The position numbers were made by a program, and so were the translations under genes. The notes below the pieces were generated by a model. That model was not told where the DNA came from. It ran no database searches and was given only the letters and a program-made list of their open reading frames with translations. From the IMG/VR virus record IMGVR_UViG_3300032331_000813, positions 1-64,000 of that record: DNA of 64,000 nt; one strand, given 5' to 3'. This DNA is from a virus. Below, piece after piece: positions 1,930 through 9,103 of this stretch. The stretch's first letter is position 1; each line of letters starts with the position of its first letter.

Positions 1930-3717
1930 TTACATTGCGTTACCAGCTGGCGCCGGCGTTCCACCAGGCATGTTGCCAGCATCAGTTACTGCACCAGCTA
2001 CTTCAGGTCCAGTTTCTGCACCCTCTTCTGGTGCATTTTCTATGCTGTCAGCAGTTTCTAAGTCAGTGTCAATGTCACCGGCGCTAACGCCAATATTACG
2101 AAGGTCGCTACTTGATGGTTCAACATCATCATCTTTACCGTTTTCTTCACGCCACATTTTTTCATTCTTATTGATTTCTTCTTCACTTAAACCTAAGAAT
2201 CTTTCTAATGCAAAACGCTTACTCATATAAGGGAACGCTTCCATTGCTTGGAATGTGCTAACACGGGCTGTATCTAACTCACTTTGACGATAAGCAGCAA
2301 AGTTTTGTGGTGGATTAAACTCTAATGTAAACAACCCACTGTCAATGTTAAAGCCTCTCCAACGCAAGAATAACTTGAATTCTTCATCCAATTTGTTACT
2401 CATGTACTTCTGTAGTCGTTCGCAATATTGATTGAAACGGAACTCTTGAATCATAGCTGTGCCAACACGACCATCACTTAATGGGGTAGTATTGTCATCA
2501 GGGCCAGTGGGTAAGTATGAACTTGGAACACGTAAGCCACGTGCTAATCTGTTGTTAAAGTATTTCAAGTCATCAATTTCACCAAGATTTTGTCCACCGG
2601 GTAATACTTCAACTGACGAACCACGACCGTCAGCAGTGACTGGGAAGAAGTAATCTTCGTTCATACTCAATGGATTATATGTAGCATCAACAATTGCGGA
2701 ACCACCATGAACTGATGGAATACGTCTTTGATGTATCTCATTCTTAATACGTTCAACAAAAGCCATAGCCAAATGACTTGGCATGTTACCAACGTCAATC
2801 TTAAACATTCTACGCTCTGGCGCACGTTGCACACGATAGATAAGAACCGCATCTTCAAGCAATTCTTTTTGCTTATAAACTTTGAAAATATTTTCTAAAA
2901 TAGATTGTCCAAACGGCCAGAATCTATCTAATCCTTCAGTTAAACTCAAGTGAACGATGTGTTTAGAATCAATCGCCGATTCGCTTTGGCCCAATGTAAA
3001 ACGACTACCAGTAGTGTTGTAGGGCATACTTGGAACAGTGTATCCGCCGCCGGCGCCGCCTCCACCTGTTCCTCCCATACCAGTTGCTGGGTTAGCAGCA
3101 AAGTCTGTATTTGTTTTAGTCGCAACCGTAAGATTCTGTAAGTTTATGTTTATGTCTTTGATAACATATTGCTCAGGCTTCTTGCCTTCACTTTCGTTAA
3201 CAATAACTTTGATAACTTTTGTATTGTCAATCCAGTATAGCTTGAAGTTTTCTGGATCACGAACAAAAACTTGATCTCCGTACTTGATAGTATTACGGAA
3301 AATTTTGAATGTTCTTGTTCCAAATTCGTTTAGTTTACACCATTGTTGTAATTGTGTTTTAAGCAATTCTACTTCGTGAGGAGTTGGATCCTCAGTGAAT
3401 GCTAAGTTAAATGGTGTATCGTTATGTTCGTTTTTCTGTGTACTAAACTCTGAGATGATATCTAAACATGCGTTAATTTCAGCATCAACATCCATCATTT
3501 CATATTGATTATATCTTTCAATACGATTAGGGTGACCAGTATAGACTTCTGGAAGTCTACTCATGTAGTTTTTATAACCCATCTCGGTGTTGTTCCAGCC
3601 TCCTGTTTCAGAACCATTTTGTCCTGGACTGCCGTTCCATGCACCGGAATTGCTATTTCCACCACCTATTGGGCTGGAGATACCACTTTTATTCGTAAAA
3701 CGTTTTTTGTAGGTCAT
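1930..3717 (-). CDS. 20: Portal vertex protein, gp20
   Basis: A 595-residue portal protein, somewhat longer than T4 gp20 (524). The portal forms the dodecameric ring at the head vertex through which DNA is packaged and to which the tail joins. Family signatures include the early segment SRLPEVYTGHPNRIERYNQY, the following DVDAEINACLDIISEF, the central VHLSLTEGLDRFWPFGQSIL stretch, and the ring segment around GRGSSVEVLPGGQNLGEIDD. The first 35 residues are Gly/Ser/Asn rich and the last 60 acidic and Ala/Gly rich, both probably flexible. A glycine-rich insertion (about residues 214-225) interrupts the wing region. It lies 21 bases after the tape measure gene. Confidence 0.95.
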   Translation of the reverse strand: MTYKKRFTNKSGISSPIGGGNSNSGAWNGSPGQNGSETGGWNNTEMGYKNYMSRLPEVYTGHPNRIERYNQYEMMDVDAEINACLDIISEFSTQKNEHNDTPFNLAFTEDPTPHEVELLKTQLQQWCKLNEFGTRTFKIFRNTIKYGDQVFVRDPENFKLYWIDNTKVIKVIVNESEGKKPEQYVIKDININLQNLTVATKTNTDFAANPATGMGGTGGGGAGGGYTVPSMPYNTTGSRFTLGQSESAIDSKHIVHLSLTEGLDRFWPFGQSILENIFKVYKQKELLEDAVLIYRVQRAPERRMFKIDVGNMPSHLAMAFVERIKNEIHQRRIPSVHGGSAIVDATYNPLSMNEDYFFPVTADGRGSSVEVLPGGQNLGEIDDLKYFNNRLARGLRVPSSYLPTGPDDNTTPLSDGRVGTAMIQEFRFNQYCERLQKYMSNKLDEEFKLFLRWRGFNIDSGLFTLEFNPPQNFAAYRQSELDTARVSTFQAMEAFPYMSKRFALERFLGLSEEEINKNEKMWREENGKDDDVEPSSSDLRNIGVSAGDIDTDLETADSIENAPEEGAETGPEVAGAVTDAGNMPGGTPAPAGNAM

Positions 3718-3738: not shown

Positions 3739-6700
3739 TTAAACCATAGAATACTTTAATATTTTATCAGTCAAGTCGTTTCCATCTCTAAGTGCAGATA
3801 TCATAGTATTAAATTTATCTTCCATCATTTGATGTATCTCAGCTAAAACATCAACTGTACCGTCAGATTTTGTTTGACCAACAGTTGGTGCCGGAGTATT
3901 TGCAAGTTGATCTAATATTGAATTTGGTGTTAATCGTTTTATAAGTTCAGTTCCATGCAATTGAGCAGAATAACCAGATTCTGGTCCTTTTGCAATACCT
4001 TCTAATGATGCGCTAACTACTTGTCCTTCTTTAAATCCTTCCCATACTCTTTGTTTTGTAACCATTGCTTTTAGCTGAGTATCAGTTAAGTCACCTATAA
4101 TTGTATCAACACCAACCCCAGCAGCTTTCGCTATATCTTTTGCGTAGGTTGTACCTAAATTTTTATCTTTATTACCGTTAGTCCACTGAGATACCCCATG
4201 ATCAATGTCTAAACCTATATACATAGGACGACGCCATTGAGCCATCTTCAAATTATCACCGGCTTCTAATGAAGGCATAATAGCAATACCAGTGCTCCTT
4301 TGTTGGGCATCACCGTCAAGTTTTTTCCATGTTCCTATTGCACCATATTTTTTAGCTAAATCAGAGTATGAATTATTGCCCGGATTATTAGTTCTCCAAG
4401 AAACTGTTCCACCTTTTTTAATTTTATCTCCTATTCTGACTTCATTCCCCATTTGTACAAGACTGTCCCCTGAGGCTGCAGCGGGTTTAGCTGGCGTTGC
4501 TGCTTGTACGGTTTCTGTTCCCATAGCACCCGGTGAAGCTGACGGAACTGCTTCACTAGAACTACCTTTCCCGCCACCTCCTCCTGATGGTGCTCCGCCA
4601 CCTCCACCGCCTCCTGCCGGTGCTGCTGCCGGTGCTCCACCACCTCCACCGCCTCCTGCCGGTGCTGCTGCCGGTGCTCCACCACCTCTTCCGCCGCCGG
4701 CTGATGCTGCTGGTGAAGCTCCGCCACCTCTTCCGCCGCCGGCTGATGCTGTTTTTCCACCACCACCGCCACCTCCACCGCTGAAGGCGCTAGTAACTCC
4801 GCCCCAAGCACTTGATGCTGCACCTGCAACAGATGACGCTGCACTTTTAACTGTATCTACTGCTTTACCGCCTACTTCTTTGGCTTTGTCTATGGTTTCA
4901 CCAACACCAGGAATCATCTTTATTAAATTCTTAATTGCTGTAATCATACCATTTACAACATCTTCAAGTGATTTACCAAAATCTTTTCCAATTTTAGAGA
5001 ACGTTGCACCAATTTCAGAAGTCATACTCTTAGTATTGGTCCACATATCGTCAAAGGCTTTTTTAGTTATTTCCCAATTTTTCTGATCTTGTTCACCACC
5101 AATGCCATATTTGTCCCACCATGGTGCAAATTCTTTTCCAGCACTATCCCACATGTTGTTAAACAATTCTTTGGTGATTCTCCAATTTTCTTGATCTTGT
5201 TCTCCGCCGGGCCCGTATTTTGCCCACCAGCCTTTACCAAACATACTATCTGCAACATTACCTACCCACTCATCAACACCTTTTATAAAACTTTTTACAC
5301 CTTCAGCAAATCCTGAAACAATGTTAGCTGCATCATCCACTCCTGGAGCCTTTAATGTACCTTCTCTAAGCCCTTTGTCTGTTTTTAACATTGTTTCTTG
5401 CTGCGCTATACGGGCCTTTGTAGCTGCTTCAGCATCCGCTGCCGGCTTACGTTGTGACGCAGCATATTCTTCAGGTGTCATTGAACCTTGTGCTGCGGCT
5501 GTTTTTATTTTATCTTGAGATTTACTAAGGTCAATTAGAGTACCCAAATCACCTTCACCCATCGTTTGGCCTGCTACACCACCGGTAAGTTTAGTAGTAC
5601 CCAAATATTGTTTATTTTGTTTCATTAAGCCTGAAACAGCAGCTTGAGTTCTATCTACATTACTGCCTTGACCAGACTTTATCATTTCAAGAGTGCCACC
5701 GGCACCACTCATAGCTTGATATATTCTAGCAGTTTCAGCGTCAACTGGACCGCCACCCGCTGCTGATAATTTTGCAAGAGCAGAACCTTCAGCTTTTAAT
5801 CCTGCAGCCATTAATGCGCTAGATGTTTCGAACGCACGAGTCAATTCTGCAAGTTTATCAGTATCCCCTGCCTCTTCAGCTTCAAGCATTGCGGCACGTA
5901 ATTGATTCATTGACAATATAGCTTTTCTAGCATCTTCTTGTTCTTTTCTTGATGCTCCGGTTAACACTGCCATTTTGTCAAGTTCTAGTACATAATTTGC
6001 TGCTGCTTTTGCTTGGTCTCCGCTAGCTTTTGCACCTAATTTAGATTGTTGGGACATAAACTGAGCCATATGTTCCATTTGCTGCTCTTGATTTATGCCC
6101 ATTGCTCGCAACTGACCGCCCAATTCTGAGTTTATCAAATTGCCTGCATTTTCAGTAAATTGTTTGGCTCCGTCTACTAAACCGGCTCCAAACAATTTCA
6201 TATCTTTTTGATTTGCTTGTAATACTTTGTTTAGTTTTTCAAATTGACTTACAGTAAAACCTACTTTTTGCAAGTCATCAAACATTCCTTGTAGTCCACG
6301 TGAACCTACTAATGCAGAATCAGATAATTTTTCATAGCCTTCGTACAAAGCCTTATTTTGTTTGCCTAAATCTTCATCACGCTTCTTTTGATATTCTATT
6401 GATTTTTTTACTTGTTCTTGTTCACGACCTTTAAACCAAATAAACGCACCAGCAGCCGCAACTACGGCACCTACAATCCAACCAATTGGGCCAGACAGTG
6501 CAGCCAATGCTATTTCAAGTAATGCTGCTGCACCTCCTGCTGCTCCTACTGCTATACTAGTTGCAAAAGCAGCAGCACCCAAAATAACCATCTCTCCGCC
6601 TAAACTTTTCAGAGATTCGCCTAAATTACCATGTGCATCTGCTTCAGCTTGCATCTGCTCGCGGCGTGCAATACCCATAGTAACTTCATCATTTGCGCCT

Positions 6701-7353
6701 GCAAGCAATGCATCTTCATATGCAATCAAGCCTCTATAAGCAGCATCAATGCTACCAATTAATCGGTCCATTGCAAATTTTACTGCCATAACTCCTAACT
6801 TCTTTGGCAGATCCATTAATGAATTAGCTGAACCAACTATTGCTTGTTCATGTTTTTTAATTGCTGCTTCTTCACGTTGAACCATATTCAATCGTAAAAG
6901 GTCAGCTTTATTCATTCTAACGGTTAGATCAACAAGTTTATTATTTTCATCAATAACCCTGTTCATACTTGCCAGCTGAGATTCTAGCAAATTAGCAGAA
7001 GCCAATCTAGCTTTTTCTTCTTTTTGTTGTGCTTCTGAAAGTTTTTTCCAACCCGGTATGGCTTCTGCCATTATTTTGTTAGTTTCTTCGTCTAACTTTT
7101 GACGTTTTTTAAGTTGTTCTTCAGATTTTTTACGGGTAGTATATAACTCTTTTTCGACTCCGGTAGTTTCTTTTAATACTAAACCTAACTTATCAAATTC
7201 TTTTTCAACATCTCGTTGTATTTTAACTGAGTCTTGAAAACTTTCAGTAGCAAGGTCAGTTTCCCCGCGCATTCTTCCTATGGAATCCGCGGCTGAATCC
7301 GCACTTATATTCAATGCTTCAAGCAATTTTTGTACGTCAATTTCATTGGTCAT
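3739..7353 (-). CDS. Tape measure protein with C-terminal NNPGN-type domain
   Basis: A 1,204-residue protein read as the tail tape measure. Residues 1-250 are mostly charged helix and coiled coil. A long Ala/Gly/Val hydrophobic stretch (about 254-308) resembles the membrane-active segment common in tape measures. Long helical regions follow, then a 36-residue tandem repeat (about 707-770), a poly-Gly/Ala/Pro linker (about 855-931), and a C-terminal domain opening with SWRTNNPGN. That opening, followed by a conserved GAIGTW and a Gly/Trp-rich segment, resembles phage-borne peptidoglycan-acting domains; enzymatic activity is not proven. T4 gp29 is only about half as long. It diverges from the gp26/gp51 pair, the usual neighbourhood of tape measure and tail chaperones. 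Confidence 0.75.
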   Translation of the reverse strand: MTNEIDVQKLLEALNISADSAADSIGRMRGETDLATESFQDSVKIQRDVEKEFDKLGLVLKETTGVEKELYTTRKKSEEQLKKRQKLDEETNKIMAEAIPGWKKLSEAQQKEEKARLASANLLESQLASMNRVIDENNKLVDLTVRMNKADLLRLNMVQREEAAIKKHEQAIVGSANSLMDLPKKLGVMAVKFAMDRLIGSIDAAYRGLIAYEDALLAGANDEVTMGIARREQMQAEADAHGNLGESLKSLGGEMVILGAAAFATSIAVGAAGGAAALLEIALAALSGPIGWIVGAVVAAAGAFIWFKGREQEQVKKSIEYQKKRDEDLGKQNKALYEGYEKLSDSALVGSRGLQGMFDDLQKVGFTVSQFEKLNKVLQANQKDMKLFGAGLVDGAKQFTENAGNLINSELGGQLRAMGINQEQQMEHMAQFMSQQSKLGAKASGDQAKAAANYVLELDKMAVLTGASRKEQEDARKAILSMNQLRAAMLEAEEAGDTDKLAELTRAFETSSALMAAGLKAEGSALAKLSAAGGGPVDAETARIYQAMSGAGGTLEMIKSGQGSNVDRTQAAVSGLMKQNKQYLGTTKLTGGVAGQTMGEGDLGTLIDLSKSQDKIKTAAAQGSMTPEEYAASQRKPAADAEAATKARIAQQETMLKTDKGLREGTLKAPGVDDAANIVSGFAEGVKSFIKGVDEWVGNVADSMFGKGWWAKYGPGGEQDQENWRITKELFNNMWDSAGKEFAPWWDKYGIGGEQDQKNWEITKKAFDDMWTNTKSMTSEIGATFSKIGKDFGKSLEDVVNGMITAIKNLIKMIPGVGETIDKAKEVGGKAVDTVKSAASSVAGAASSAWGGVTSAFSGGGGGGGGKTASAGGGRGGGASPAASAGGGRGGGAPAAAPAGGGGGGGAPAAAPAGGGGGGGAPSGGGGGKGSSSEAVPSASPGAMGTETVQAATPAKPAAASGDSLVQMGNEVRIGDKIKKGGTVSWRTNNPGNNSYSDLAKKYGAIGTWKKLDGDAQQRSTGIAIMPSLEAGDNLKMAQWRRPMYIGLDIDHGVSQWTNGNKDKNLGTTYAKDIAKAAGVGVDTIIGDLTDTQLKAMVTKQRVWEGFKEGQVVSASLEGIAKGPESGYSAQLHGTELIKRLTPNSILDQLANTPAPTVGQTKSDGTVDVLAEIHQMMEDKFNTMISALRDGNDLTDKILKYSMV
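4560..4790 (-). repeat. Poly-Gly/Ala/Pro linker repeats in tape measure protein
   Basis: GC-rich low-complexity DNA encoding alternating glycine runs and APAAAPA or ASPAASA blocks. It separates the helical body from the C-terminal domain and looks like a flexible tether. The repetitive DNA also creates long antiphase ORFs on the plus strand that are not genes. Confidence 0.85.
5040..5232 (-). repeat. 36-residue tandem repeat in tape measure protein
   Basis: Two consecutive copies beginning WW(A/D)KYG(P/I)GGEQDQ and continuing NW(R/E)ITK..F(N/D)(N/D)MW. They are 108 bases apart in frame and clearly recognisable at protein level. Confidence 0.85.
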
Positions 7354-7438: not shown

Positions 7439-8266
7439 ATGAACAACCCCCTAAGACAGTATTTCCGCAGACCCGCATTGCATCTAAGTTTACCTAGTAA
7501 AGGTCAATATTACCCTGAAGGGTCAATTGATATGCCTGAAACTGGTGAACTTCCTATATACCCAATGACAGCTATAGACGAAATCACTGGCAAAACCCCA
7601 GATGCATTATTTAACGGTAGTGCGGTTGTTGATATAATTAAAAGTTGTGTTCCGGCAATAAAAGACCCATGGGCGATTCCTAGCATGGATTTGGATGCTA
7701 TATTAATTGCTATACGTTCAGCAACTAATGGGAATGATTTAGATATTTCTTCAACTTGTCCGTCGTGTGAAAACGAAGGAGAGTATAAAATAAATTTATC
7801 TTACTTACTAACTACGATAAAATCTGACAATTATGATAATATATTACATATTGGTGAATTACAAGTAAAATTTAAACCTCTTTCATACAAAGAAGTAAAT
7901 GACGGCAACATGGGTCAATTTCTAATGCAACGTAGGATTAGAGAAATGCAAGCTATGGATGATACAGATGAAGCAGCTAGAAATAAAAAATCCAGCGAAC
8001 TTATGAAAGACATACAAAAAATAAATGCTGAATTGGTTTGTAACACAGTTGAATCAATAAGTGTAGAATCAATGGTAGTAACAAATAGAGAACATCTAAC
8101 AGAATTTATAGAAAAATGTGATAAAAATACATATGAAGCTATCAGAACTCATGTGACTACAATCAGAACAAATTCAACGATTAAACCTCAACAAATAAAA
8201 TGTGTTAATTGTTCACATGAATATAAGCAAGAATTAGCACTTAATATATCAGATTTTTTCGGTTAA
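7439..8266 (+). CDS. 26: gp26-like baseplate hub / tail-assembly protein
   Basis: A 275-residue protein of the T4 gp26 family. Typical features are the opening RRPALHLSLPSKGQYYPEGS, a GELPIYPMTAIDEI segment, and two Cys pairs (CPSC at about 107-110; CVNC near residue 260) that could bind a metal. In T4, gp26 is needed for baseplate hub assembly and gene 26 is followed directly by gene 51, as here. The frame ends ISDFFG-stop, and the codons for DFF contain a T TTT TTC slippery heptamer leading into an overlapping -1 frame. The gene is divergent from the tape measure gene, so a tail chaperone role is plausible. Identification as gp26 is confident; its biochemical role is less so. Confidence 0.88.
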   Translation: MNNPLRQYFRRPALHLSLPSKGQYYPEGSIDMPETGELPIYPMTAIDEITGKTPDALFNGSAVVDIIKSCVPAIKDPWAIPSMDLDAILIAIRSATNGNDLDISSTCPSCENEGEYKINLSYLLTTIKSDNYDNILHIGELQVKFKPLSYKEVNDGNMGQFLMQRRIREMQAMDDTDEAARNKKSSELMKDIQKINAELVCNTVESISVESMVVTNREHLTEFIEKCDKNTYEAIRTHVTTIRTNSTIKPQQIKCVNCSHEYKQELALNISDFFG

Positions 8267-8302
8267 GGCTTCTATCCTTAACCCCTGAAAAGGTTCAGAA
8301 GC
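8254..8302 (+). promoter_or_regulatory. Probable programmed -1 ribosomal frameshift signal
   Basis: The 3' end of gene 26 has T TTT TTC (8254-8260) exactly in the X XXY YYZ phase. Directly after it is a perfect 8-bp inverted repeat GGTTAAGG (8261-8268) / CCTTAACC (8276-8283) that contains the stop codon. An alternative pairing CTTCT (8269-8273) with AGAAG (8297-8301) starts 8 bases after the slip site, the usual spacer, and could form a pseudoknot with the first stem. Slippage would add 76 residues to gp26. Confidence 0.75.
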
Positions 8303-8313
8303 TGTTAGATCAA

Positions 8314-8490
8314 ATGGAAAAAGATTCAAAAGAAATCAAGAATACTGCATTGAAGTTTTCTTGGTACATGCGGGGAGGGGTATCATATGAAGATGTACTC
8401 AACATGTCCGACGATGAAAGAATTATGATTGGTAAAATAATTGATGACAACTTAGAAACAACTAAGAAATCTCAATTGCCATTCTTTTAA
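8314..8490 (+). CDS. gp51-like small ORF, likely read by frameshift from gp26
   Basis: From ATG 8314 this frame encodes 58 residues with the motif WYMRGGVSYEDVL and the ending ETTKKSQLPFF, a pattern I associate with small proteins encoded next to gp26 in T4-like marine phages. The open frame continues upstream past the ATG through a sensible sequence (LTPEKVQKLLDQ) into the end of gene 26. No ribosome site is placed properly before ATG 8314. Both points favour expression as a frameshifted extension rather than a separate protein. In T4, gene 51 (hub assembly) occupies this place but encodes a longer protein, so homology to gp51 is positional. Confidence 0.65.
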   Translation: MEKDSKEIKNTALKFSWYMRGGVSYEDVLNMSDDERIMIGKIIDDNLETTKKSQLPFF

Positions 8491-8491
8491 A

Positions 8492-9103
8492 ATGAAAAAT
8501 GATTTCAATGTCCCAATAACTTATTTTGGCGGGACAGGAGGACATTTTTTAATATCTTTTTTAAATGCAGCATATTTAAATGACCATATTGTATTTAAAT
8601 ACAGTAAATTTGGAAACGCACATGATACTGGCTATGCAGCCGTAGTAGGTGGTGGATTAGGCTCAACCGCACCTAACGTTGATTACAAAATAAAAACGTT
8701 ATTAGAACATTTACATACTAGAAAATTTATAGGTGTACATGTTATAGAATACCATAAATTAGTTGATATTTTCAATCAAGTTATAAAAATAACATATGAA
8801 CAATCGGATATTGAAGAAATATCAAAAATATTTGTGTTAAAGTATAGTAACGGTTTCACTAGAGATTATGATGACCTAATAATCGATTCAATAAAAAAAG
8901 GAATTAAGTTTCTACCAACGTTTTCAACAAGCTATGAAAAATCAGTAACATGCATAGCATGGGCAGAACTATTTAAAAAAGATCCTAAACTGTTAATAGA
9001 TAAGTTGTCGCAGGCGTTTAATATACCTGTGGAGAATTTTAATGTATCTAATTTAATAGAATGGAGAAAGATAACGAATACTACTTTGGCTTCATATCCG
9101 TAA
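8492..9103 (+). CDS. Unknown protein with P-loop-like N-terminus
   Basis: A 203-residue protein starting two bases after the preceding stop, so translationally linked to the gp26 unit. Near the N-terminus is ITYFGGTGGHFLISFLNAAY, a glycine-rich turn after a beta strand that resembles the phosphate-binding loop of sulfotransferase-type folds seen in some phage proteins; it is not a canonical Walker A. The remainder is an ordinary mixed alpha/beta sequence ending WRKITNTTLASYP. No membrane segment or signal peptide is visible. GC content is very low (27% in a counted 60-base line). Function is unknown; a sulfotransferase-like role is only a suggestion. Confidence 0.6.
   Translation: MKNDFNVPITYFGGTGGHFLISFLNAAYLNDHIVFKYSKFGNAHDTGYAAVVGGGLGSTAPNVDYKIKTLLEHLHTRKFIGVHVIEYHKLVDIFNQVIKITYEQSDIEEISKIFVLKYSNGFTRDYDDLIIDSIKKGIKFLPTFSTSYEKSVTCIAWAELFKKDPKLLIDKLSQAFNIPVENFNVSNLIEWRKITNTTLASYP

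Follow-up and report, generated by a model that had tools for sequence, protein, structure and literature searches.

A probable programmed −1 frameshift joining a gp26-like gene to a gp51-like tail in a giant-phage relative of T4

The DNA examined here, a stretch of 64,000 nucleotides which we call the window, is part of an 84.5-kb IMG/VR virus record. It carries a gp26-like gene whose zero frame ends in GAT TTT TTC GGT TAA, and a reading frame shifted by −1 stays open beyond this end for 76 codons. We asked whether this second frame is a gene in its own right, or whether it is the C-terminal part of a longer form of the gp26-like protein, made by ribosomes that slip on U UUU UUC. The gp26-like gene was assigned to PF12322 in a Pfam search (E=4.4e-21) and to phrog_150, 'baseplate hub', in a PHROGs search (E=8e-21), and the AlphaFold2 model of its product had a mean pLDDT of 87.6. 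The −1 frame, with the codons CGG TTA AGG CTT..., encodes RLRLLSLTPEKVQKLLDQMEKD...LPFF, whose model is helical (pLDDT 82.7). The positions of these and other features are given in Table 1. A first-pass annotation of the DNA had noted that U UUU UUC stands in exact phase at the last codons of gene 26, and this is what we observe.

Table 1. Positions in the window of the gp26/tail junction, its predicted RNA structures and the divergent neighbour.
Feature	Position	Strand	Remarks
Gp26-like gene (putative short form, TAC-N)	7439..8266	+	275 aa; zinc-ribbon C-terminus; ends DFFG-stop
Slippery heptamer T TTT TTC	8254..8260	+	Zero-frame phase fits a tandem −1 slip; follows the X XXY YYZ pattern
Zero-frame stop TAA	8264..8266	+	
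−1 frame extension (putative TAC-C, gp51 C-terminus-like)	8260..8490	+	76 codons plus stop; stop at 8488-8490
Internal ATG of 58-aa ORF (8314-8490)	8314..8316	+	Weak Shine-Dalgarno
8-bp stem GGTTAAGG/CCTTAACC of the first-pass annotation	8261-8268 with 8276-8283	+	Perfect here; 0 nt from heptamer
Conserved downstream hairpin	8267..8303	+	GGCTTCT 8267-8273 with AGAAGCT 8297-8303; 6-nt spacer from heptamer
Inner helix of the hairpin	8276-8279 with 8290-8293	+	CCTT with AAGG
Divergent neighbour, candidate tape measure/virion structural protein	3739..7353	−	1204 aa; phrog_1533, tail length tape measure, E=2.8e-4 (weak)

TTTTTTC is not rare in AT-rich DNA. The window holds nine copies where about 20 are expected, and the heptamer by itself is not over-represented. 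Its frequency alone is uninformative; the conserved feature is its in-phase position at the junction of gp26 and the tail. Relatives were gathered by protein search of phage records and viral contigs. In all of the 36 distinct related loci, the junction heptamer was TTTTTTN in the same phase, and in 34 of them it was TTTTTTC. The two exceptions were TTTTTTT in Vibrio phage vB_VmeM-32 and TTTTTTG in Rhizobium phage RL38J1 (L044, positions 3642-3648), the latter being the only such case in 114 distinct loci. Three additional scans provided 78 more distinct loci, mostly of cyanophage type, and every one (78/78) carried TTTTTTC. In total, TTTTTTC was present in 112 of the 114 distinct loci, which come from isolates as well as metagenomes and share the two-frame arrangement and a conserved tail. 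Taking into account the encoded residues and the codon usage of each gene, the joint log10 probability of TTT-TTC preceded by T in the 36 loci was −37.6, a value that is overstated, as the loci were treated as independent but are related.

The invariant slip site spans the jumbo phages 121Q, RaK2, CBB, GAP32, PA5oct, Atu_ph07, Phosso, BF, Munch and Vibrio 2.275, and is also found in a cyanophage and in T4-like phages of Aeromonas, Cronobacter, Rhizobium and Vibrio. Among its carriers, identity of gp26 to the window protein falls to about 28% or lower. The zero-frame stop drifts from 10 to 40 nt from the heptamer start among the relatives, while the heptamer and the −1 frame are retained. Alignment of the gene 26/51 junction in related phages had been proposed as a check in the first-pass annotation, and both heptamer and frame proved to be conserved in it. 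Its central claim, that gp26 ends in a programmed −1 frameshift, gains support from the heptamer counts and the conserved tail. Judged from these sequences, it is very probable that such a frameshift makes a short and a long T4-type tail assembly chaperone.

The RNA that follows the heptamer was then considered. In the window, the 8-bp stem listed in Table 1 is the minimum-energy fold of positions 8261-8310. Its 5' arm abuts the heptamer, so that it would lie beneath a ribosome positioned at the slip site. As a conserved element, this stem and the pseudoknot built on it were rejected; the stem does not survive intact in L009, despite a gp26 identity of 90%, nor in other relatives. The stem is probably incidental and particular to the window sequence. 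When positions 8267-8310 were folded without the preceding bases, GGCTTCT paired with AGAAGCT around the inner helix CCTT/AAGG, with a predicted energy of −10.5 kcal/mol; within the outer helix, GCTTCT (8268-8273) pairs with AGAAGC (8297-8302). An Rfam search gave no match.

The structure was evaluated in the 36 loci against recoded sequences, in which codons were swapped for synonymous ones drawn from each phage's usage. Nucleotides 6-45 after the heptamer were more stable than their synonymous recodings, with a mean z of −2.43 and p<0.05 in 22 of 36 loci. The corresponding values for an overlapping stretch further downstream (26-75) were −0.30 and 5 of 36. These values point to selection on the hairpin beyond the coded protein. 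The effect was strong in the window and its clade, and was not significant in 14 of the 36 loci (for example 121Q, GAP32, BF and L028/L029); a structural stimulator is therefore not universal. When Vibrio phage 2.275 is compared with the window clade, one outer-helix pair changes from U-A to C-G, a double compensatory change, and several two-sided changes occur in inner pairs. This covariation is partial and modest, as many shuffles reach some of the pair measures. Of the stimulatory structures claimed in the first-pass annotation, the perfect stem directly after the heptamer and a pseudoknot on it were thus abandoned, whereas the alternative stem (8269-8273 with 8297-8301), placed 8 bases downstream, survived as the core of the conserved hairpin, which starts 6 nt after the heptamer.

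Another way to express the second frame would be from its internal ATG, the 58-aa ORF being a separate gene translated by coupling to gp26 termination or by leaky initiation. Homologues are indeed annotated as separate hypothetical or gp51 genes in several GenBank records, and in three relatives (L008, L025 and L045) SD-like motifs precede an internal ATG or TTG. Pseudomonas phage Cygsa01 is the sole two-frame relative in which no slip site was found. Its gp26/gp51 pair overlaps in TAATG (L043, 3309-3482), which would permit reinitiation, and its sequence suggests a switch from frameshift to coupled reinitiation. Against a separate gene, conservation of the tail reaches back to its very first residue, right at the slip site. 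Residues R1, L4 and L5, conserved in at least 90% of tails, all lie before the window's only ATG, and the tail of the Agrobacterium phage Atu_ph07 matches that of the window at 39.5% over residues 1-76. The sole possible Shine-Dalgarno match for the ATG is an 'AAG' 12 nt upstream, and such matches are mostly absent in relatives. Several of them have no in-frame ATG in the initial part of their tail (such as L003, L006, L017, L018, L022, L027, L030 and L045). These observations argue that translation enters the tail at the slip site and not at an internal start, and bear out the earlier claim that the 76-residue extension looks conserved; the internal ATG, said to lack a ribosome site, offers no dependable start. 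With TTTTTTC also kept at nearly all of the loci, we consider a separate small gene very unlikely.

The same fusion could in principle arise before translation, as six T/U can cause RNA polymerase to slip, and a slip of one base in the right direction would join the two frames. A run of six is short for efficient polymerase slippage, however, and the conserved unit T TTT TTC retains its C and a strict codon phase. The hairpin conserved in the window clade also stands at a ribosome-appropriate distance of 6 nt. Slippage in transcription is, if anything, less likely still than an internal start. That the heptamer is there by chance, next to an in-frame extension that has decayed or was frameshifted by a sequencing error, would agree with the commonness of TTTTTTC noted above. 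The recurrence of the two-frame arrangement, with a conserved tail, in 114 distinct loci refutes this explanation, and its probability is close to nil.

T4 itself does not have this arrangement. Its genes 26 and 51 are adjacent, divergent and separate, and gene 26 ends in GAG TTC TTT GAG TTA CTA TAA, with no slippery site, whereas the window has one gene with a slip site. In profile comparisons, the gp26 and gp51 families were homologous (99.3%, E 2.6e-20). The frameshift fusions of the cyanophage and of the Aeromonas, Cronobacter, Vibrio and Rhizobium phages matched gp51 end to end (99.5%, E 9e-23), and their tails matched the gp51 C-terminus (98.4%, E 7.6e-15). The tails of the jumbo phages also matched the gp51 C-terminus (86%, E 4.9e-6), over only 32 columns. 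The full jumbo fusion gave no confident alignment with gp51 (probability 28%), and the jumbo zero-frame profile matched T4-type gp26 (96%, E 1e-9). No match was found between the tails and gp26. The resemblance of the extension to gp51, as first claimed, is thus reproduced in both groups. On the strength of these profiles, T4 gp51 is read as a gp26 homologue plus tail, that is, an in-frame long form, and T4 gp26 as the counterpart of the short form. The frameshift would accordingly yield from one gene the two forms, short and long, for which T4 has separate genes. In RB43 (L048, 3001-4294) and KP5 (L053, 1501-2795), the long (gp51-like) and short (gp26-like) chaperone genes lie in tandem, while the T4 pair is divergent. 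The tail alone had no convincing match in Pfam or PHROGs. PDB sequence and fold searches with the gp26 and tail models gave no match at E<=0.001 for either domain; with no solved structure resembling either model, a chaperone fold like that of the solved lambda-like TACs is not confirmed.

Concerning the surroundings, the gene was said to neighbour the tape measure gene, as for lambda G/G-T. An adjoining candidate is present, with the weak match given in Table 1. The lambda arrangement, in which the tape measure gene follows immediately downstream on the same strand in one operon, is not found in the window; the 1204-aa candidate is encoded upstream, on the other strand. Beyond it lies a T4-type portal gene (PF07230). 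Where the flanking sequence suffices, most jumbo relatives show the same divergent order, with a neighbour of 667-1533 aa. P-SSM5, phiAS5, S13 and LG08 have a 529-642-aa gene after the tail on the same strand. In the window, a 203-aa ORF (8492-9103, + strand) begins 1 nt past the stop codon of the tail; Pfam and PHROGs gave no noteworthy match for it. Further away, a single open frame of 7756 codons (26518-49788, + strand) is unusually long. It has a weak match to FG-GAP repeats in its first half only, no DNA tandem repeats were found in it, and it perhaps encodes a giant virion or adhesin protein.

Frameshifting is reported to be seemingly conserved in several groups of T4-like phages, with T4 itself using genes 26 and 51. 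The first-pass annotation knew of no description for T4-type gp26/gp51, and this has to be corrected: a frameshift in T4-like phages was reported by Vladimirov, Gautam and Davidson (Virology 2022). As cited in the PRFect paper (PMC10885494), that study described some T4-like phages which, in place of a frameshift, have one short gene and a second, longer gene that is already fused; as cited in the paper on phage Adele (PMC12846349), it described polyT slippery sequences in the TAC-N genes of T4-like phages. Its system apparently involves the same families, a gp26-like TAC-N and a gp51-like TAC-C. A 2016 review (PMC5009743) still had T4 as the exception to the widely conserved G-T frameshifting. 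In a 2010 comparison, cyanophage gp51 had only about 20% of the usual length, its first ~200 residues missing; gp51 would appear short there because the tail is made by frameshift. The TAC frameshift of the Vandenendeviridae/Andersonviridae, as in Adele (PMC12846349), is similar in that a polyT motif is conserved and the −1 frame, which stays open, has been labelled as a hypothetical gene of its own, but the motif is GTTTTT, not T TTT TTC, and the phage lineage is different. The mechanism is thus already known in T4-like phages; its breadth among jumbo phages, and the hairpin, may go beyond what was described. The window case is a well-supported extension into a distant giant-phage branch, not a new mechanism.

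In the mechanism that we propose, normal translation of the gp26-like gene would give the short form (TAC-N) of the T4-type chaperone. A minority of ribosomes, with U UUU UUC read by tRNA-Phe in both the P site and the A site, would slip back by one base, helped by the hairpin, which at that moment would lie at the ribosomal mRNA entry. These ribosomes would read 76 codons more to produce the long form (TAC-NC, about 350 aa). The sequences show the slip site, the conservation of both frames, the constraint on the hairpin and the homology of the tail to the gp51 C-terminus; that ribosomes slip there, how efficiently they do so and that the products act as chaperones, we infer. In lambda gpG/gpGT, a −1 slip near the end of the tail chaperone gene gives a minor, C-terminally extended form (PMC5009743). 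The logic in the window would be the same, and the analogy drawn at the outset can be kept, although the window has its candidate tape measure gene on the opposite strand and a protein of the PF12322 type with a zinc ribbon. By analogy with lambda, the short form would coat the tape measure protein, the rarer long form would recruit tail tube subunits via its extra domain, and neither would remain in the virion. A broader proposal, which to us stands evenly balanced between right and wrong, is that the jumbo branch has a dedicated hairpin, fast to evolve and at a fixed spacing of 6-7 nt, which drives the TAC frameshift, and that the chaperone gene there is uncoupled from the tape measure operon, so that the frameshift alone would set the short-to-long ratio. 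In the same proposal, the lineages of T4, RB43 and Cygsa01 each gave up the frameshift on their own, with gene duplication or possibly reinitiation taking its place.

The locus implies that, in a distant giant-phage branch, T4-type tails share lambda's two-form chaperone logic, and it supports reading the long-puzzling hub proteins gp26 and gp51 of T4 as short and long forms. In many database records the second half bears the name of a stand-alone 'gp51' or of an unrelated 'hypothetical protein', and a correction is due. Short genes named 'gp51 baseplate hub assembly catalyst', with an internal or late start, are found in P-SSM5 (L040, from 3693), phiAS5 (L041, from 3762) and similar records; they are probably the mis-annotated −1 extension of gp26. 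The loci form a natural series, from a frameshift with a hairpin, through a frameshift with no clear hairpin, to two genes and possible reinitiation, and offer material for studying how the ratio between the two forms is maintained in phages.
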